A stretch of DNA of 64,000 bases. Source: Wenjunlia tyrosinilytica (GTDB lineage: Bacteria > Actinomycetota > Actinomycetes > Streptomycetales > Streptomycetaceae). A model generated the notes under the pieces. The model searched no databases. It was not told the DNA's origin and saw only the letters and a list, made by a program, of their open reading frames with translations. The stretch covers positions 265,729-329,728 of the forward strand of contig NZ_BMMS01000002.1 of the NCBI RefSeq assembly GCF_014646055.1. Reading direction: 5' to 3'. Positions 21,829 through 58,026 of the stretch are shown in pieces; position 1 is the stretch's first letter; every line of letters begins with the position of its first letter. A program made the translations under genes and the position numbers.

Positions 21829-23909
21829 TGGCCGCGGCGGGCAGCGGCCCCCATGAGAAGGGCCCCCCGGAGTGGGGGCCCGGGGAGAGCGGACTCCGGG
21901 AGAACGGCCCCCAGGAGAAGGGACCGGGGGACAAGGGACCTCGCGAGAACAGCCCCCGCGAGAACGGACCTGGGGAGAAGAGACCGCACGGCAATGAGCC
22001 ACGGGGCGCCGATCCCCGAGGCACCGGCCCCCAAAGCACCGGACCTCAAGGCGCCGGAACCCAAGGCGCCAGACCCCAAGGCACCGATCCCCGAGGCACC
22101 AGACCTCAAGGCGCCCGAAACCAAGGCGCCAATCCCCAAGGCACCAGACCACAAGGCACCGGCCCCCGAGGCACCGGACCTCAAGGCACCGGAACCCAAG
22201 GCACCGGAACCCAAGGCACCAATCCCCAAGGCACCAATCCCCGAGGCGCCGATCCCCAAGGCACCAGACCTCAAGGAACCGGACCCCGAGGCGCCGGAAC
22301 TCAAGGCGCCGGGCCCTGGGGTGGCGCTTCCCGCGGTGGTGACTCCCGCCGTGGCGGCTCCCGCGGTGGCGGGCCCCGGCCGGACGTTCCGCAGCCGGAC
22401 GGGCCTGACGGCACCGCGCCCGCGGGGCCCAGGGCTGCGGGGCCCGGGGCCGCCGGCTCGGCGGGCGGCGGCAAGGAGCGGGGCCCCGGCGGGATCCGTA
22501 CCGCGCTGGCCGGACTGACCACCCGGGGCCGTTCCTTCCTGGCCGCGGGGGGCGCCGCCGCGATCTGCTCGTACCTGCTGGGCCAGCCGGACCTGCTGCG
22601 GGTGGGACTTCTGCTGGCGGCCCTGCCGCTGGTGTGCGCCGCCGTGCTGTACCGCACGCGGTACCGGGTGGCGGGAAGCCGCCGTCTCGCGCCGTCGAGG
22701 GTTCCCGCGATGTCTGAGGCCAGGGTGCATCTGCGGGTGGACAACGTCTCCCGGATGCCCACCGGCCTGCTGATGCTCCAGGACCGGGTGCCGTACGTGC
22801 TGGGGCCACGGCCGCGCTTCGTGCTGGACCGGGTCGAGCCCGGCGGGCACCGCGAGGTCTCCTACCGGGTCCGCTCCGACCTGCGGGGCAAGTACCCGCT
22901 GGGCCCGCTCCAATTGCGGCTGACCGACCCGTTCGGCATGTGCGAGCTGACCCGCTCGTTCAGCGCCTTCGACACCTTGACGGTCGTGCCGACCGTGCAC
23001 CCGCTGGCTCCCGTCCGGCTGGTCGGCGAGTCCACGGGCTACGGCGACAGCCGCACCCGCGCGGTGGCGCTCGCGGGTGAGGACGACGTCATTCCCCGCG
23101 GCTACCGGCACGGTGACGATCTGCGGCGGGTGCACTGGCGCTCGACCGCCCGCTACGGCGAGCTGATGGTGCGCCGGGAGGAGCAGCCGCAGCGGGCCCG
23201 GTGCACGGTGCTGCTGGACACGCGCAGGCAGGCCCACCGGGGCACGGGTCCGGATTCGACCTTCGAGTGGGCCGTCTCCGGCGCGGCGTCGGCGGCGGTG
23301 CACCTGCTGGAGCGCGGCTACGGGGTGCGGCTGCTGACCGACAGCGGCAGCTGCGTGCCCGGCGTGGACGGGGTCGGCGGGGCGGGATACGGCTCCGCGT
23401 CCGACACCGCGGGCGTGCTGCTCGACACTCTGGCGGTGGTCGACCACTCCGACGGGGCCGGGTTCTCCCGGGCCCACGATGTGCTGCGCGGCGGGTCCGA
23501 GGGACTGCTGGTGGCCTTCGTCGGGGCGCTGGACGAGGAACAGGCGTCCGTGCTGGCCAGGACGCGGCAGCGGGTGGGCGGCGCGGTGGTGTTCCTGTTG
23601 GACACCGGTGTCTGGGGCGGTCCGGCCCCGGCGGCGGCTTCCGGCGCGACGGCTTCCGCCATGGCGGTTTCCGGCATGACGGCTCCGGGCGCGACGGCTT
23701 TCGGCACGGCGGCGTCCGGCACGGCGGCTTCCGGCGGCTCGGCGGGCGAGGACCCGCTGACGGCGAGGGAGCGCACCCTGCGTGAGGCGGGGTGGAGCGT
23801 GCACCGGGTGGTGCCGGGGGCCACGCTGCCGAAGCTGTGGCAGCGCGCCGACCGCTACAGCACGGACGACGGCGGTCCGGTGGCCGCCGGTGGGGGGATG
23901 TTCCGATGA
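21828..23909 (+). CDS. DUF58 domain protein with a repetitive N-terminal extension
   Basis: The 693-residue protein has three parts. Residues about 1-170 are a low-complexity run of five-residue units (G-T/A-x-P/T-Q/R). After a Gly/Pro-rich stretch, two membrane segments occur at about 235-270. The DUF58 region then carries the hallmark 'YRHGDDLRRVHWRSTARYGELMVR' (about 425-448). The C-terminal part contains a degenerate Gly/Ala/Ser/Met repeat (about 605-645). DUF58 proteins are partners of MoxR ATPases. ATG 21828 has GGAGG five bases upstream and overlaps the moxR stop. Codon use in the N-terminal repeat is abnormal in this frame (see findings). Confidence 0.88.
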   Translation: MAAAGSGPHEKGPPEWGPGESGLRENGPQEKGPGDKGPRENSPRENGPGEKRPHGNEPRGADPRGTGPQSTGPQGAGTQGARPQGTDPRGTRPQGARNQGANPQGTRPQGTGPRGTGPQGTGTQGTGTQGTNPQGTNPRGADPQGTRPQGTGPRGAGTQGAGPWGGASRGGDSRRGGSRGGGPRPDVPQPDGPDGTAPAGPRAAGPGAAGSAGGGKERGPGGIRTALAGLTTRGRSFLAAGGAAAICSYLLGQPDLLRVGLLLAALPLVCAAVLYRTRYRVAGSRRLAPSRVPAMSEARVHLRVDNVSRMPTGLLMLQDRVPYVLGPRPRFVLDRVEPGGHREVSYRVRSDLRGKYPLGPLQLRLTDPFGMCELTRSFSAFDTLTVVPTVHPLAPVRLVGESTGYGDSRTRAVALAGEDDVIPRGYRHGDDLRRVHWRSTARYGELMVRREEQPQRARCTVLLDTRRQAHRGTGPDSTFEWAVSGAASAAVHLLERGYGVRLLTDSGSCVPGVDGVGGAGYGSASDTAGVLLDTLAVVDHSDGAGFSRAHDVLRGGSEGLLVAFVGALDEEQASVLARTRQRVGGAVVFLLDTGVWGGPAPAAASGATASAMAVSGMTAPGATAFGTAASGTAASGGSAGEDPLTARERTLREAGWSVHRVVPGATLPKLWQRADRYSTDDGGPVAAGGGMFR
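21994..22518 (+). other. Alternative-frame open reading frame inside the DUF58 gene (APxPK repeats)
   Basis: In the +1 frame relative to the DUF58 gene an ATG at 21994 opens 174 codons reading MSHGAPIPEAP, then about 20 units such as APDLK, APEPK, APDPK. This frame uses AAG, GAG, GAC, CTC and ATC, the normal Streptomyces codons. The DUF58 frame over the same bases uses CAA, AGA, CGA, GAT and AAT, which are rare. It is therefore either an overprinted gene or the original frame of the repeat, displaced by two compensating indels. No Shine-Dalgarno at good distance is seen. A candidate, not an established gene. Confidence 0.35.
22000..22320 (+). repeat. 15-bp minisatellite in the DUF58 gene
   Basis: About 20 degenerate copies of a 15-bp unit of the form caaggcaccggaccc run in tandem. 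Because 15 is a multiple of three, copy-number change keeps the frame and alters only the length of the disordered extension. A related 15-bp periodicity (gagaag-ggacc units) is already visible from about 21850. Confidence 0.85.
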
Positions 23910-26334: not shown

Positions 26335-26355
26335 GGCGGCCCACCGCCCTCGCGG

Positions 26356-26705
26356 GTGGGCCACCGACGGGCACGTGAGCGGGAAACAGCAAGCCCCGAA
26401 GAGCCGAGGACAGCCGCAGCCAGCCCCGATGCCAGCGACCGCCCACGCCAGTGGGCCACCGACGGGCACGTGAGCGGGAAACAGCAAGCCCCGAAGAGCC
26501 GAGGACAGCCGCAGCCAGCCCCGATGCCAGCGACCGCCCACGCCAGTGGGCCACCGACGGGCACGTGAGCGGGAAACAGCAAGCCCCGAAGAGCCGAGGA
26601 CAGCCGCAGCCAGCCCCGACGGCAGCGACCGCCCACGCCAGTGGGCCACCGACGGGCACGTGAGCGGGAAACAACGAGCCCCGAAGAGCCGAGGACAGCC
26701 GAGGT
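26356..26705. repeat. 95-bp tandem repeat array, about 3.7 copies
   Basis: Three almost identical 95-bp units start at 26356, 26451 and 26546, and a fourth, diverging unit starts at 26641 and fades by about 26705. Units begin gtgggccaccgacggg and include cacgtg. Each unit junction can form a hairpin (gcccac-gcca-gtgggc). Frames across the array are open on both strands only because of composition. It lies between two convergent genes. Confidence 0.95.
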
Positions 26706-49747: not shown

Positions 49748-50146
49748 TCACGCCCCGACCTCGAACCATACGCACTTGCCCCCGCCGCCCGGGTCGGGCT
49801 CCACTCCCCAGGCGCTGGTGATGGCGGCGATCATGGCCAGCCCCCTCCCGGACTCGTCCATGAGCCCGGCCCGCCGCGCCACGGGCATCTCGGCGCAGCT
49901 GTCGTGCACCTCGACGCGGACACCCCCGTCGAGGCGGCGTAAGCGGACGGTGCAGCGGCCGTCCGGGACATGGGTGAAGACATTGGCGAGCAGTTCGGTG
50001 GCGGCGAGCTCGACGGCGTCGGTGAGCTCGGGCATGTCCCACAGCACGAGATAGACGCGCACCAGGCGCCGCACGTGTCGCGCGGCGTGCGGAGCGGCGG
50101 TGAGGGTCAGGTGGTGCTGCTGGGGCGGGGCAGGTGTTGGATTCAC
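49748..50146 (-). CDS. ATP-binding anti-sigma-factor-like protein (HATPase_c)
   Basis: The 132-residue protein is a stand-alone histidine-kinase-type ATPase of the RsbW/SpoIIAB class. N-box 'AVELAATELLANVFTHV', G1-like 'EVHDSCAEMP' and G2 'DESGRGLAMI' are visible. Streptomyces has many such proteins next to XRE/DUF397 pairs. The start is set at GTG 50146; a TTG 15 bp upstream is possible. It is divergent from the XRE gene 94 bp away. Confidence 0.88.
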   Translation of the reverse strand: MNPTPAPPQQHHLTLTAAPHAARHVRRLVRVYLVLWDMPELTDAVELAATELLANVFTHVPDGRCTVRLRRLDGGVRVEVHDSCAEMPVARRAGLMDESGRGLAMIAAITSAWGVEPDPGGGGKCVWFEVGA

Positions 50147-50239
50147 GCCACAAGAGTGCAATCGGCCAACTACGCTCTGCTACATCGGAGAATCAACCCT
50201 GCTCAACGTTGCTGAGCGGATTTGAACAAGGGGGAAGCC

Positions 50240-51064
50240 ATGACCAACATCCGCGAACTCGACCCCGGATCCTCGCCGCTGGCGTACTACGGCGCGGAAC
50301 TGCGCCGCATGCGCGAGGACGCGGGCCTCACCCTCCAGCAGTTAGGCGGGATCGTGTTCTGCACGGGCTCGCTGATCGGCCAGATCGAAACGGCGAGGAA
50401 GGCGCCGACGCGCCAGATCACGGAGCGCCTGGACGCTGCGCTGGGGACGGGAGGGGCGCTGCTGAGGCTGTGGAAGCTGGTGAGCAGGAGCCAACTCCCG
50501 TATTGGTTCCAGCCGTATGCGGAGATAGAGGCGATCGCCACCTCGATCGCGACGTTCCAGGCGCAGCTGGTGCATGGATTGCTCCAGACGGAGGAGTACG
50601 CGAGGGCTGTTCTGGGAGCCGTGACTCAGGACCGGCTGGCCGAACGAGTAGAGGCTCGAATGGAGCGCCAGCGCATCCTGGACCGCGCAAACCCGCCTCT
50701 CGTCTGGATCATCCTTGATGAGGCCGTGCTCCATCGTCCCATCGGTGGCCGAGAAGTGATGCGAGGGCAACTCGCGCACCTCTTGAGCTTCCGCGAGAGG
50801 GAGGACGTAAACGTCCAGATCCTCCCTTTCGAAGGAGGGGCCCACGCGGGACTAATGGGCTCATTCACGCTTCTCCGCTTCGAGGAGGAGCCGGACATCG
50901 TCTACACCGAGGACTACGACCGGGGTCACATGACCTTCAATCCGGCGAATATGAGGGATCGTTCGCTCCGCTACGATCTCCTGCAGGCCTCTGCCCTCCC
51001 GGTCGAGGACTCGGCGAAGCTGATTGCCCAGGTGATGGAGGAGCGCTATGGGGAGCACCCCTGA
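50240..51064 (+). CDS. XRE-family regulator with DUF5753 domain (WhiJ/AbaA-type)
   Basis: The 274-residue protein has an N-terminal XRE helix-turn-helix (about 18-75, 'LRRMREDAGLTLQQLGGIVFCTGSLIG' in parts). The DUF5753 sensor region follows (about 95-265) with 'LVHGLLQTEEYARAV', 'ILDEAVLHRPIGG' and 'GLMGSFTLLRFEEEPDIVYTED' in parts. This class pairs with DUF397 proteins and regulates development or antibiotic production in Streptomyces. GGGGGAAG lies just before the ATG. Its end overlaps the DUF397 gene by 17 bp. GC is somewhat lower than around it. Confidence 0.93.
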   Translation: MTNIRELDPGSSPLAYYGAELRRMREDAGLTLQQLGGIVFCTGSLIGQIETARKAPTRQITERLDAALGTGGALLRLWKLVSRSQLPYWFQPYAEIEAIATSIATFQAQLVHGLLQTEEYARAVLGAVTQDRLAERVEARMERQRILDRANPPLVWIILDEAVLHRPIGGREVMRGQLAHLLSFREREDVNVQILPFEGGAHAGLMGSFTLLRFEEEPDIVYTEDYDRGHMTFNPANMRDRSLRYDLLQASALPVEDSAKLIAQVMEERYGEHP

Positions 51065-51476
51065 TCTGACTGCCGCAGCGTGGCGCAAGTCCAGCTACAG
51101 CGGCGACACCGGCGGCGAGTGCGTCGAGGTCGCCGCCCTGGAAGGCGCCCAGTGGCGCAAGTCCAGCTACAGCGATGACAAAGGCGGCGATTGCGTCGAG
51201 GTGGCTGCGCTGGCAGGCGCCCAGTGGAGCAAGTCCAGCTACAGCGGCGACCAGGGCGGCGAGTGCGTCGAGGTCGCCGCGCTGACAGGCGCCCAGTGGA
51301 GCAAGTCGAGCCACAGCGGCGACACAGGCGGCCAGTGCGTGGAGGTCGCGAGCGTCGAAGGCACCATCGCCGTCCGTGACTCCAAGGACCCCAGTGGTCC
51401 CGCGCTCACCTTCACACACGCCGCGTTCACCGCCTTCGTCACCGCCGCCGCCAACGGCGAACTCCCGCTCCCCTGA
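51048..51476 (+). CDS. DUF397 protein with four tandem half-domain repeats
   Basis: DUF397 proteins are normally 60-80 residues. This one is 142 because its first half is present four times as a 24-residue unit starting at residues 12, 36, 60 and 84 (W-R/S-KSS-Y/H-S-x-D-x-GG-x-CVEVA). Only the last copy continues into the second half, 'TIAVRDSKDPSGPALTFTHAAFTAFV'. At the DNA level the unit is 72 bp (51081, 51153, 51225, 51297). It overlaps the XRE gene, so the two are coupled; DUF397 partners are thought to modulate their XRE proteins. Confidence 0.93.
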   Translation: MGSTPDLTAAAWRKSSYSGDTGGECVEVAALEGAQWRKSSYSDDKGGDCVEVAALAGAQWSKSSYSGDQGGECVEVAALTGAQWSKSSHSGDTGGQCVEVASVEGTIAVRDSKDPSGPALTFTHAAFTAFVTAAANGELPLP

Positions 51477-51923: not shown

Positions 51924-52853
51924 ATGACAACCAGCCCCGAACCCGACATCACGTCCGCCCCACCGCCGCGCCCGGTCACTCCGGAAGCCGACGTCGTGGC
52001 CAGTCTCCACCAGATGCGGACCCGCACAGACATCACGAGGGGCGCGCGCAACGAGGAACTCCGCCTGCCGGACGATCTCGTGGAGTCGCTCGGCGCGATG
52101 GCGCGGGCGCCCCAGGCGGTTCAGGCGCAGCTCGACATGGGGGAGCCTGGCCGCCGACCGTCCCCGTTCATCGGTCTCGGCAGCAAGGTGAACGTAACCC
52201 ACAAGACGACTTTCGACATCCAGGACAGGGACCCGGAGGACGTCAGGTACATCCGCTTCGCGAAAGCGGCCAGGGTCAACAGCGATGTCTCGAACCAGGA
52301 CCTGAAGATCGGTGTCACGGTTCCTGGCTATGTGAGCTTCGAGACGACTCAGCTGAGGGGAGCAGGTCAGCAGAAGGGCGAGCCGGACGACCGGTTTCTC
52401 GAACGAGTCGGCGGACTGGTCAACGAGGCATTCGAAAATGCTGAATGGCAGTATGCCGGGGAGGAGGTCCGCCAGGGCGCGCAATGGTCGTTCGACGGCC
52501 CGCACAGGCAATTCGACGGGCCGGTTGCCGACAACAAGCTCCAGAACACCGACACACCGGGTCTGGCCAGCGACGTGGGCCAGTACCCGATTCTTCAGAG
52601 GTACGAGTTCATCGGGGTCCTCTACGACCAGAGGGCCCAGCAGATCCTCAACGTCCAGCACTACGGCGACACCCTCAAGGCCCTCAACGAGCAGACCCCC
52701 GTGACAAGGGGCATCCCCAGCGCCGCTGCCCTGAGATCCCCCGGGGCCACGACCGGGCAGGCCCAGCGCTCGACTTCGGCGTCCTCGCAGCCTCCGGCCG
52801 CGGCCGTCCAGACCCAGACACAGACACAGCAGGGGCAGAGCCCCACGCGCTGA
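51924..52853 (+). CDS. Hypothetical polar protein
   Basis: I do not recognise this 309-residue protein. A Pro-rich N-terminus (about 1-22) precedes a mixed helical/strand region (about 25-265, with 'SKVNVTHKTTFDIQDRDPEDVRYI' in parts and 'VPGYVSFETTQL'). A Ser/Thr/Gln/Ala-rich tail ends in repeated QT dipeptides. No signal peptide, membrane segment or known catalytic motif is visible. The ATG has GAGGAAGGA at good distance. A strong terminator follows immediately, so it is transcribed on its own. Confidence 0.75.
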   Translation: MTTSPEPDITSAPPPRPVTPEADVVASLHQMRTRTDITRGARNEELRLPDDLVESLGAMARAPQAVQAQLDMGEPGRRPSPFIGLGSKVNVTHKTTFDIQDRDPEDVRYIRFAKAARVNSDVSNQDLKIGVTVPGYVSFETTQLRGAGQQKGEPDDRFLERVGGLVNEAFENAEWQYAGEEVRQGAQWSFDGPHRQFDGPVADNKLQNTDTPGLASDVGQYPILQRYEFIGVLYDQRAQQILNVQHYGDTLKALNEQTPVTRGIPSAAALRSPGATTGQAQRSTSASSQPPAAAVQTQTQTQQGQSPTR

Positions 52854-52889: not shown

Positions 52890-53102
52890 TCTCCCCCGGC
52901 TCCCCCGCTCCTCCGTTCGGGTGACCTCGGGTCAGGAGTGTTGCCTTCGCATTCACCGGAATGGGTTACTGAATCCGTCCTATTCCGGTGGGCCGCCCAT
53001 CCTTTCCGGTGGAGTGGAAGGCGCCCACTCGAATACGGAGCATCCCGTGTGATGCCTCCACGCCGAGCGCTCCTCCGGCCTCGCGGCTGCTGTGGAGCCG
53101 TC

Positions 53103-56100
53103 ATGCCGACGCCGTACCGCCCCCGCGGGCTTGTCATCGTCACCGATCAGGGCGGGGACTGCCTCGCGATCGTCGAACCGGATTCCCACAGGATCGTGCG
53201 CACACTCCACGCGCCGATCCCGCTGGTGGCGCGATCGGCCCCCGACCGGCTGGTCGTGTGCACCGAGGCCGAGGTCAGCGGCGTGCTGGCGGTGCTCGAG
53301 GCCGGTCCCTTCTCCGCCACGGCGAACGCGCCGCTGCCGGCACCGGTGCCCCTGGGGACGGCCGACGACGACCCACCGCAACTCTTCAACGGGTTCTCCG
53401 GGGTCTTCCCGAACCAGGGCCCGTACAGCGGCGGAACGCTGGTGACCATCATCGGGGAGCACTTGGCCAACGCCACCGCCGTGCACTTCGGCAGCCACCC
53501 GGCGGCCGGCTTCTCCGTCCTCGACGACTCGACGATCGTCGCGGTGACCCCCTGGGGCGCCGGGGCGGTACCGGTCACGGTGACCACTCCCGGCGGCACC
53601 GCGCGCATCGGCTCCTTCCTCTACATCCCCTGGCCCGGCCTGCGGGGCATCCTGCCCAGCACCGGGCCGATCGGCGGCGGCACCATCGTCGAGCTGACCG
53701 GCGTCAACCTGAGCACGGCGATCGTCGTGCACTTCGGCGACGCCGTCGCGCACCCCACGGCCGTCTCCGACCAGCACCTCCTCGTGACCGCTCCCCCCGC
53801 GACCGGTCCCGGTACCGTCCCCGTCCACGTCAGGACCGTCGGCGGGGTGAGCAACCGGCTGTTCTACACCTACGCGCCCGTACCGGAGGTCACCGGCGTC
53901 ACCCCGGCCACCGGGCCGATCGCGGGCGACAGCACACTCCTGCTGACCGGCACCGGGCTCTCCCGCGTCACCGCCGTCACCGTAGGCGGTGCCCCCGCGA
54001 GGTCCTTCCGCTCGTACTCCGACTCCCTCGTCGTCGTGGTGACGCCGCCCGGGGTCGCCGGGCCCGCCGACATCACCGTCACCACTGCCGGGGGCACCGT
54101 GACGGTCCCCGACGCCTTCGGCTACATGGTGCCCACGCAGACGGCCCTCACCTCCGCACCCGACCCCGCCCTCGTCGGCGGGCCGGTGACCTTCACCGCG
54201 GTGGTGACGGGTGTCCCGCCCACGACGGGCACGCCGTCCGGCACCGTCACCTTCGGCTTCGGGGACGGCTCACCCGCCGTCACCACGGCGCTCACCGATG
54301 GCACCGCCACGGTCGTCCACGCCTACTCCGCGCCGTCGGACAGCCCCTGGGCCATCACCGCCACCTACGGCGGCGACGTGTTCTTCACGCCCTCCACCGG
54401 GACGGACACCCAGGCCGTGGAGGCGGCACCGACCACCACCTCGCTGGTCTCCGCCCCCGACCCGTCCCAGACCGGTCAGCCGGTCACCTTTGTCGCGCGC
54501 GTCGCTCCCGTCCCGCCCGGAGCCGGTGCGCCGACGGGCACGGTGACCTTCGACTTCGGCGACGGCACCCCGACGGTCACCCTGCCGCTGACGAGCGGCG
54601 CCGCGACCGCGGACCACGTGTACACGCAGACCGCCGGCAGCCCGTACACCGTCACCGCGGACTACGGCGGCGACGCCGAGTTCACGGCCTCCACCGGCAC
54701 GGACACCCAGACGGTCGGTCAGGCGACGAGCAGCGTCGCCGTCGGCCTGGCCCCCGCCCCTTCCACGGCCGGACAGCCGGTGACCGTGACGGCGACGGTC
54801 ACCGCCGTCCCGCCCGGGGCAGGCACCCCGACCGGCACCGTCGCCTTCGACCTCGGGGACGGCTCACCGGTCGTCGTCGCACCGCTCACCGATGGCACCG
54901 CCCAGGCCACCCACGCCTACACCGGCACCGTCGGCAGCCCGTACGCCATCACCGCGGACTACAGCGGCGACGCCGACTTCTCGTCCGCCACCGGGACGGC
55001 CAGTGCGACGGTGGCGCAGTCCTCGTCGACGACAACCGTGAGCTCGGCGCCCGACCCGTCGGTGGCGGGAGAGCCGGCGACCTTCACCGCGACCGTCACC
55101 GCCGCCCCTCCCGGAGCCGGCCTGCCCACCGGCACCGTCACCATCGACTTCGGCGACGGCACACCGGGCACGACCGCCGAACTCGTGGGCGGCACCGCCG
55201 AGACCGTCTACGCCTACGCCGACACCGCCGGGAGCCCGTACACCGTCACCGCCACCTACAACGGCGACACCGACTTCACCGCCTCCGGCGACACCGGCAC
55301 CCACACCGTCCAGACCGCCGACACCGCCACCGCCGTCGCCTCCGTGCCCGATCCCTCCACGGTGGGCCAGGAGACGACGTTCGTCACCCAGATCACCCCC
55401 GAGGCTCCGGCGGCCGGTACGCCGACGGGAGAGGTGACCTACGCGTTCAGCGACGGAAGCCCGCCCGTCACGGTGCCCGTCGTCGGCGGCACGGCGACGT
55501 TCGAGCACACCGATCCGGACGTGGCGAACAGCCCGTACACCGTGACCGCCGGCTACAGCGGCGACGAGAACTTCAACCCCTCCGAGGGCACGGACATCCA
55601 TGTGGTGCTCCCGGCCGTGACGACCACGGTGGTCAGCGCCTCACCCTCCGTCTCGGTGACCGGACAGCCGGTCGACTTCACCGCTGCCCTCGCCACCGTC
55701 CCGCTGGGGGCGCAGACGCCCACCGGTACCTTCACGTTCGACTTCGGCGACGGCACACCGACCGTCACCGCGCCTATGGCCGACGGCACCGCGGATGTCA
55801 CGCACGCCTACACCAGCGCGGCGCACAGCCCGTACCCCGTGACCGTCACCTACAGCGGTGACCCCAACTTCACGGCGTCCAACGACACGGGACTCCACAG
55901 TGTCGAACCGGCCTCGACGAGCACCACGGTCACCGCCATCCCCGACCCGTCCGTGACCGGGGAGACCGTCACGGTCACCGTGACTCCCCTCGCGCCCGGG
56001 GCAGGTGTCCCCACAGGGCACGTCGACTTCGACTTCGGCGACGGCACACCGATCGTCACCGGCGAACTCGCGGGCGGCACGGTGACGGTCACCCATGCCT

Positions 56101-58026
56101 ACACCCACGCGGGCGGCCCGTACACGATCTCGGCCGTGTACAGCGGAGACGCCGACTTCACCCCGTCCGAGGACACCGTCTCCCACACCGTCGCGCCGGC
56201 CGCGACCACCACCACGGTGATCTCATCGGCGAATCCCTCGGCGGTGGGCCAGAACGTGACACTGATCGCGCGGGTCACACCGGTGCCACCGGGCGCGGGG
56301 GCGCCGACCGGCACGATCGGCTTCGACTTCGGCGACGGCACGACGCCCGCCACCGTGCCGGTCTCGAACGGTGTGGCAACGGCGACGCACGCCTACGCCG
56401 CCACCGCGGGCAGCCCCTACACCGTCACCGCGTCCTACAGCGGCGACGGCGACTTCGCCGCGTCGTCCGGGACCACCGCCCAGCGCGTGGAAGTGAGCGT
56501 CTCGACCACATCGACCACGGTGACCTCCGCACCGGACCCGTCGGTCGTCGGCCAGGCGGTCACGTTCACCGCGACCGTGGTGTCCGTCCCGCCCGCCTCG
56601 GGCACCCCGACCGGCACGGTGACCTTCGAGTTCGGCGACGGCACGGCACCCGTGACCAGCTCCCTGATCGGCGGGACGGCGACGGCCACCCACTCCTACA
56701 CCGCCTCCGGGAACCCCTACTCGGTCACCGCCGGGTACAGCGGCGACGCCGACTTCGAACAGGTCCGGGAGCCCGTACACCGTCACGGCCACCTACAACG
56801 CCGACGCCGACTTCACCGCGTCCAGCGGCACGGACACCCAGACCGTCAACAAGGCGGCCACCACCACCGCCCTGGTCTCCTCGCCGAATCCCTCGGCAAC
56901 AGGTCAGACGGTGGCATTCACCGCGACGGTCGTGGCGCAGGCTCCCGGAGCCGGGACGCCGACCGGCACGGTCACCTTCGCCTTCGGCGACGGCACGGCA
57001 CCCGTCACCACGCCGGTCACCGCCGGAGCCGCGGCGGTCACGCATTCCTTCAGCGGAACCTCGGGCAGCCCGTACACCGTCACGGCCACCTACAACGGGA
57101 GCGACGGTTTCACCGCCTCGAGCGCCACGGCCCCCCAGGCGGTCGACAAGGCGGCCACCACCACCGCCGTGGTCTCCACACCGGACCCCTCGGGAGCCGG
57201 TCAGTCGGTGACCGTCACCGCCACCGTCGCCTCGACCGCACCGGGGGCCGCAGTTCCGACCGGCACGGTCGCCTTCAGCTTCGGTGACGGAAGCCCCACC
57301 GCCTCGGCGCCACTGACCGGCGGCGCCGCCACCGTCACCCACATCTACACGAGCAAGACCGGCAGCCCCTTCCCCATCACCGCCACGTACAGCGGCGACA
57401 CCAACTTCACCGCCTCGAGCGGCACCGACACCCAGACCGTCAACAAGACCGCGACCACCACCACGGTGACCACGACCCCCGACCCCTCGGTGACCGGCCA
57501 GACAGTGACCGTGAGGGCGACCGTCTCCTCCGGGTCGGGTACTCCGACCGGCACGGTCACCTTCAGCTTCGGCGACGGCACCGGCAACAGCACGGCGACG
57601 CTGTCCGGCGGCATCGCGACCATCACCCACGCGTACACGGCCGCGACCGGGAGTCCGTTCACCGCCACGGCCACCTACACCGGGAGCGACAGCCACGGCA
57701 CCTCCAGCGGGACCGACACCCAGACCGTCAACAAGGCCTCCACGACCACGGCCGTGGTCTCCTCGCCGAACCCCTCCTCGACGGGTGACCGGGTGACCGT
57801 CACAGAGACCGTGACCCCGGTCGCCCCCGCCACGGGCACTCCGACGGGGACGGTCACCCTCGCCATCCCGGGGCGCGCGCCCCAGACGGCGACACTCGTC
57901 AACGGCACGGCCTCCACGTCGTTCAATCCCCTGCCGAAGGGGACCCACACCGTCACGGCCAACTTCAACGGCGACGCCAACTACGCGTCCTCCGCGGGGA
58001 GCACGACGCAGCAGGTGACGAACTGA
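53103..58026 (+). pseudogene. Giant IPT/TIG plus Ig-like repeat protein, frameshifted
   Basis: From ATG 53103 (GGAG five bases upstream) the frame encodes a short N-terminal region ('RGLVIVTDQGGDCLAIVEP'), three IPT/TIG domains (about residues 90-340) and nine Ig-like repeats of about 98 residues. Within a tenth unit, near 56760, the sense jumps to another frame and continues through four more repeats to a stop at 58024-58026. The first frame alone stops at 57287 after nonsense sequence. No signal peptide, membrane segment or LPXTG motif is visible. The break could be true decay, recombination between repeats, or a collapsed repeat assembly. Intact homologues would be adhesin- or fibre-like. 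Confidence 0.8.
54139..58026 (+). repeat. About 13 tandem Ig-like repeats of ~294 bp
   Basis: Each ~98-residue unit starts with a Thr/Ser run followed by S-x-P-D-P-S-x-x-G-Q. It contains G-T-P-T-G-T-V-T-F-x-F-G-D-G-T and ends in G-S-P-Y-T-V-T-A-x-Y-x-G-D-x-x-F-T-A-S. The similarity is with bacterial Ig-like (Big_3_5-type) domains. Confidence 0.85.

Follow-up and report, generated by a model that had tools for sequence, protein, structure and literature searches.

In our study, a DUF397 protein of the window was found to contain four consecutive copies of the N-terminal half of its domain (N-half) followed by a single C-terminal half (C-half), and this array is genuine, recurrent and highly labile. 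The window is the whole stretch of DNA that was analysed, 64,000 nucleotides of contig NZ_BMMS01000002.1 of Wenjunlia tyrosinilytica. Judged from the sequences of orthologous loci, the unit number seems to change too fast to follow ancestry, while the copies appear to stay under selection. We tentatively regard the array as an optional module that serves the valency or oligomerisation of an XRE co-regulator, which may tune its modulation of the XRE protein; this reading falls just short of an even chance. The features of the locus are as follows.

49748..50161, minus strand: histidine-kinase-type ATPase gene, divergent, upstream of the XRE gene (PF13581, 5e-12)
50240..51064, plus strand: XRE regulator with HTH_31 and DUF5753, 274 amino acids (PF13560, 3e-13; PF19054, 2.3e-55)
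51048..51476, plus strand: DUF397 protein with four N-half units and one C-half, ORF of 142 amino acids (PF04149, 169.6 bits, 4 stretches)
51081..51152, plus strand: N-half unit 1 (WRKSSYSGDTGGECVEVAALEGAQ), 72-bp unit
51153..51224, plus strand: N-half unit 2 (WRKSSYSDDKGGDCVEVAALAGAQ), 72-bp unit
51225..51296, plus strand: N-half unit 3 (WSKSSYSGDQGGECVEVAALTGAQ), 72-bp unit
51297..51350, plus strand: N-half unit 4 (core), the final unit, part of the complete DUF397 domain (best Pfam stretch, residues 82-134)
51351..51473, plus strand: single C-half (VRDSK strand, strand, helix) and C-terminal tail (Pfam; strands 106-111 and 119-123 and helix 124-135 in the model)

The first-pass annotation had described a fourfold DUF397 half-domain with a 72-bp period and a second half present once, and Tandem Repeats Finder, Pfam and codon shuffles agreed on this. 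Tandem Repeats Finder placed the array at 51080-51349, with a period of 72, 3.8 copies, 87% matches and a score of 407. The identity of the array with itself shifted by 72 bp was 0.83, whereas 10,000 codon shuffles averaged 0.36 and never exceeded 0.48. The PF04149 score of the protein compares with a cut-off of 24, and the best stretch, the last of the 4, covered positions 1-54 of the 55 of the profile. The units, of 24 residues each, start at residues 12, 36, 60 and 84. The protein contained four cysteines, one per unit, as had been noted; the C-x-E motif was present as CVEV in 4/4 units, and VRDSK occurred in the sole C-half, with RDS at residues 110-112. No family above cut-off was found in NCBIfam for the window DUF397 protein. 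The genome is a draft of 172 contigs, a setting in which a repeat may arise from the assembly. However, all four units are distinct, with a pairwise nucleotide identity of 0.71-0.90 (10-29% of the bases differing), and a separate four-unit array adjoins the XRE orthologue of a second genome (L130); four-unit arrays of other types were present at L139, L140, L148 and L155. An assembly artefact is thus scarcely credible.

The XRE gene lies directly upstream on the same strand, and its last 17 bp overlap the start of the DUF397 gene. In NCBIfam, the window XRE protein matched the Sco1979 family below threshold only (174 vs 350 bits). In the published description, whiJ clusters have a three-gene layout in which the third gene shows antisigma-like features of the AbaA type (PMC4255298). 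The layout of the window fits such a cluster, and by this description the ATPase at 49748-50161 is presumably the AbaA-like (anti-sigma type) third member. We read the window protein as the DUF397 partner, a co-regulator, in an XRE-DUF397 pair of the whiJ type. Directly downstream, at 51924-52850, a protein of 309 amino acids matched no Pfam or NCBIfam family above cut-off. In the stretches preceding the XRE gene (window about 50110-50239) and its orthologues, TACGCTC was present in 37/71 against a shuffled mean of 0.8, often within TACGCTCGGCTAC. TGATTCA was found upstream of the orthologues in 21/71 stretches against a shuffled mean of 0.0. From this enrichment, a promoter or operator common to the XRE orthologues is likely. 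The WhiJ9 operator consensus given in PMC10294661 was found upstream of 0/71 orthologues. The search covered 71 of the 74 orthologues, the remaining 3 having too little upstream sequence.

Other repeats were also present in the window. A very long repetitive protein at 52938-57812 contained tandem repeats of 297 bp in two blocks, 54213-55283 and 56765-57812; by eye the repeats are of Ig-like/PKD type, and the frame looks shifted within them towards the end of the ORF as listed. A 95-bp direct repeat was located at 26343-26701 (3.8 copies, 97% alike, Tandem Repeats Finder score 669), and a 15-bp repeat of about 20 copies at 22014-22316.

A search for multi-copy DUF397 architectures, suggested in the first-pass annotation, revealed that they are not rare, as they occurred in this genome, in Actinomadura and at the loci of the XRE orthologues. 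The 19 DUF397 matches of the window genome were grouped by hand into 11 genes, and 5/11 contained more than one N-half (two units in three genes, three units in one gene and four in another). In other Streptomycetaceae, multi-unit genes numbered 7/28 in G006, 1/28 in G012, 1/19 in G024, 0/19 in G009 and 0/20 in G015; these counts come from match coordinates and are lower bounds, as weak halves can escape, and a lone N-half in G024 and, in G009, five matches that were partial or split stand outside them. Actinomadura and its relatives contained multi-unit DUF397 proteins of 2-4 units with spacings of 19-27 residues. Among 200 distinct ORFs, 121, 49, 23 and 7 contained 1, 2, 3 and 4 units, respectively, counts that are biased upwards since the loci were picked by similarity. 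Unit numbers were assigned by profile, as a regular expression misses degenerate units. No array of more than four units was found among the matches listed (the 200 distinct ORFs and a further set of 217). At the level of the phylum, at E 1e-18, 6/396 genomes were found among the matches listed, all of them kin of the window at the level of Streptomycetaceae. Plasmid and phage records gave no match at E 1e-8 or 1e-4. Whole-gene rather than half-domain multiplication was observed in Actinomadura atramentaria (L098), where five full single-unit DUF397 genes are consecutive, and at L132 a single XRE gene is followed by a tandem of three DUF397 genes, the first with two units and the others with three each.

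Copy number was followed among the XRE orthologues, which we defined by our own cut of at least 300 bits against the window XRE protein. This gave 74 distinct proteins, all of them encoded directly upstream of a DUF397 gene. Units numbering 1, 2, 3 and 4 were found at 26, 42, 4 and 2 of the 74 loci, respectively; only the nearest DUF397 gene was counted, and further DUF397 genes were present at 3/74 loci, having three units at two of them (L129 and L132). Because part of the 74 had been fetched by DUF397 similarity and was therefore biased, the analysis was repeated on the 51 orthologues that an XRE similarity search of 200 genomes had yielded, of which 21, 27, 2 and 1 contained 1, 2, 3 and 4 units. 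On the tree built from these 51 XRE rows, copy number required 19 changes against a shuffled mean of 18.7 (328/500 shuffles gave 19 or fewer), the length of the linker to RDSK required 12 against 20.7, and C-x-E-C of the first unit required 2 against 4.7 (2/500 shuffles as low). The tree of 74 rows, made by a quick method and with 29/71 inner branches drawn open for weak support, gave 26 changes against 26.8 for copy number and 2 against 6.7 for C-x-E-C. Copy number was equal in 8/16 pairs of XRE proteins at 85-89% identity (chance 0.45) and in 5/5 pairs at 94% identity or more. Copy number is therefore without phylogenetic signal, and linker length and C-x-E-C follow the XRE tree. As C-x-E-C is nearly constant on the tree and copy number switches freely, most one-unit genes probably descend, by loss of a unit, from a two-unit ancestor.

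A copy number that is as good as random on the XRE tree is also what a passenger array would give, and this is the main rival explanation. Unequal crossing-over or slippage would gain or lose an in-frame 72-bp unit, and the extra units would be harmless linkers without a task at a tolerant N-terminus. We regard it as rather doubtful, though a serious candidate. It gains from the XRE columns, none of which co-varies with unit number, and from the low confidence with which the extra units are predicted. The composition of the units argues against it. The pN/pS value was 0.30 for the first unit, like that of the last unit (0.28), and 0.29 for the XRE protein; it was taken from 65 pairs, which are not independent, drawn from 47 multi-unit orthologues, the 48th being left out as it had no cysteine at the aligned place. 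Seven residues of the first unit (W1, R2, S7, G11, G12, C14 and E16) were invariant in 48/48, with no filter on Cys14. First units thus look as constrained as last units, although gene conversion between units could transfer the constraint from one to the other. Neighbouring units were 24 residues apart in 55/56 cases and 23 in one.

The cysteines distinguish the non-final units from the final ones. In the 74 orthologues, C-x-E-C was found in 46/56 non-final units vs 1/74 final units (33 CVEC, 12 CIEC and 1 CLEC among the 46), and this near confinement also speaks against a passenger. The three non-final units of the window are counted in the 56 and are devoid of C-x-E-C, and the first unit was without the second cysteine in 7/48 multi-unit orthologues, the window array included. 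The suggestion that repetition could multiply the cysteines thus found indirect support in the relatives. From the 46/56 non-final units and the 2 changes on the tree, the extra units might be a thiol or metal module, which would bind metal or form disulphides and make the co-regulator responsive to redox state or metal; cross-linking by conserved cysteines has been proposed for DUF397 generally in PMC7159879. However, the units of the window and most units of the listed multi-unit Actinomadura proteins contain one cysteine each (C-x-E-V type), and the proteins of whiJ clusters are predicted in PMC4255298 to be cytoplasmic, where disulphides are uncommon. We consider this explanation improbable. 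The linker AALxGAQ of window units 1-3 was common to the first units of L002 and L055, and the serine at position 2 of window units 3 and 4 was absent from the 48 first units and from all other final units. This pattern suggests that in the window a unit of the first-unit type was expanded, with exchange with the last unit.

The claim that the DUF397 protein works with the adjacent XRE regulator agrees with the overlap of the two genes and with the linkage of multi-unit forms. An XRE/DUF5753 ORF was found just upstream of 64/65 multi-unit proteins vs 78/109 one-unit proteins (Fisher p 1.4e-6; loci L001-L157, fetched by DUF397 similarity with 1.5-2.5 kb on each side, related rows not being independent). 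The one multi-unit protein without an adjoining XRE gene is a later gene of the L132 tandem. This almost exclusive position beside XRE genes would be expected if each extra half were another docking site for the XRE/DUF5753 partner, as had been supposed from the repeat itself. However, this contact idea gains no support, because none of the 242 variable XRE columns of the 74 orthologues separates one-unit from multi-unit partners (best z 4.4, p 0.485, permutation). Close XRE kin also pair with either one or two units (L178 and L182, identity 0.88), and we consider additional XRE contact quite improbable. In the final unit and C-half, 1/75 columns, near the C-terminus, tracked unit number, weakly, at p 0.03.

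DUF397 has been described as four strands and a C-terminal helix, with C-x-E in strand 2 and RDS in strand 3 (PMC7159879), and the N-half is by published description a beta-hairpin. The structure prediction suggested at the outset was made for the DUF397 protein alone. The final unit and the C-half were modelled better, with pLDDT values of 55, 66, 84, 87, 91, 91 and 77 in ten-residue blocks from residue 81, whereas residues 1-81 (units 1-3) stayed below 50. The better part contained three strands and a helix, the first strand being two residues only. In the two-unit relative L055, the blocks of the first unit had pLDDT values of 53, 40 and 34, and a three-residue strand there was given no weight. 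The AlphaFold input was 39 of 92 relatives, picked for spread of unit number, for the window protein, and the window protein with 57 others of the same 92 for L055. The models neither show nor exclude a folded array, because few rows cover the extra units. A PDB sequence search with the window protein gave nothing up to E 10, and the best E of Foldseek on the model was 1.9. VIA-align on the model gave a best Z of 5.9 (KhtT), 4.3-4.6 to PUR repeat III, PC4 and Sub1, 4.1 to EF_3132 (3pm7) and 3.8 to SP_0782. Set against the PC4/Whirly/PUR-like beta-beta-beta-beta-alpha fold, the model thus reached middling Z values only. No fold is claimed from the likeness to PUR, PC4 and Sub1, as the Z values are, by the note of VIA-align itself, in the range of unrelated folds.

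The alteration of the co-regulator's own association, rather than of the XRE interface, appears to be the best-supported reading of these sequences, and the passenger array remains its serious rival. The N-half array would grow and shrink, most likely by recombination between the in-frame 72-bp repeats. Together, the last unit and the C-half would make up the core domain, the part acting with the XRE protein. The extra units would be optional add-ons that alter the valency of the co-regulator or the way it self-associates, and in proteins with C-x-E-C they might also change its thiol or metal chemistry. Such a change may tune the strength with which the co-regulator acts on its XRE partner. 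We counted for this module the 1-4 copies of the orthologues with copy number at chance on the tree, the near-fixed period of 24 residues, the low pN/pS of the first units, the C-x-E-C of the non-final units, the better modelled last unit and C-half, the XRE linkage of multi-unit forms together with XRE columns of which none tracks copy number, and, from published work, the need for Scr2, the non-toxicity of DUF397 and the hetero-oligomers of BldB. Counted against it were the low pLDDT of units 1-3 and of L055 unit 1, the window protein's lack of the C-x-E-C of its relatives, and a lability without phylogenetic memory that also fits a weakly constrained passenger array. A bolder form of the idea is unlikely, though worth stating: the N-half, which is also found doubled with no C-half, might be an autonomous repeat module. 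Its unit number would then act as a rapidly changing dial for the XRE/WhiJ-type switches that govern development and antibiotic production, and the non-final units would be specialised as thiol or metal sites by their C-x-E-C.

In the DUF397 and WhiJ/BldB literature, supplements aside, we found no description of a copy number without phylogenetic signal, of first units as constrained as last units, of the C-x-E-C of non-final units or of the finding that no XRE position tracks unit number, and no experiment comparing unit numbers. XRE-DUF397 pairs are numerous and influence antibiotic production and development. The natural series of one to four units beside orthologous XRE genes is a ready-made experiment on which half works, and the C-x-E-C units single out specific residues to change.

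In S. coelicolor, 15 XRE-DUF397 pairs have been reported, and the function of Scr1 needs Scr2 (PMC10364602). BldB and most of its tested paralogues hetero-oligomerise according to PMC10294661. DUF397 was predicted in PMC2701414 to be a type II toxin with the XRE protein as its antitoxin, and the array would then be a multiplied toxin. However, 14 S. coelicolor DUF397 proteins and Scr2 were overexpressed without toxicity under the conditions used (PMC10364602, PMC6262351), and the 14 include all four proteins with a short and a full DUF397 match in the InterPro table; this explanation is very improbable. The window protein shares with the DUF397 (PF04149) members of XRE-DUF397 and WhiJ-BldB-type pairs the profile, C-x-E and RDSK, the upstream XRE/DUF5753 gene and the adjoining AbaA-like gene, whereas those pairs have one N-half and the window protein four. 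A short match followed by a full one is given in Table 2 of PMC10364602 for 4/15 proteins (SCO2514, SCO4177, SCO4300 and SCO6128), which the main text names in that table alone; by coordinates alone these are two-unit forms, with two matches against the four units of the window. PMC7159879 mentions multiple tandem DUF397 copies and possible cysteine cross-links, and with these published double matches multi-unit DUF397 is a kind already known. Two N-halves of the same type behind an XRE ORF, but no C-half, were found in Actinoallomurus (L081, L082 and L094) and Actinomadura sp. DC4 (L087). The proteins of L087, L094 and L082 are 48, 49 and 65 amino acids long, respectively, the C-half of the four was not found in other frames just downstream, and L094 contained a relic-like DSK before its stop. 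The locus L130 (genome G329) is like the window in its XRE orthologue (393 bits), its four units with a period of 24 and its one C-half, and its units 1-3, in contrast to those of the window, contain C-x-E-C.
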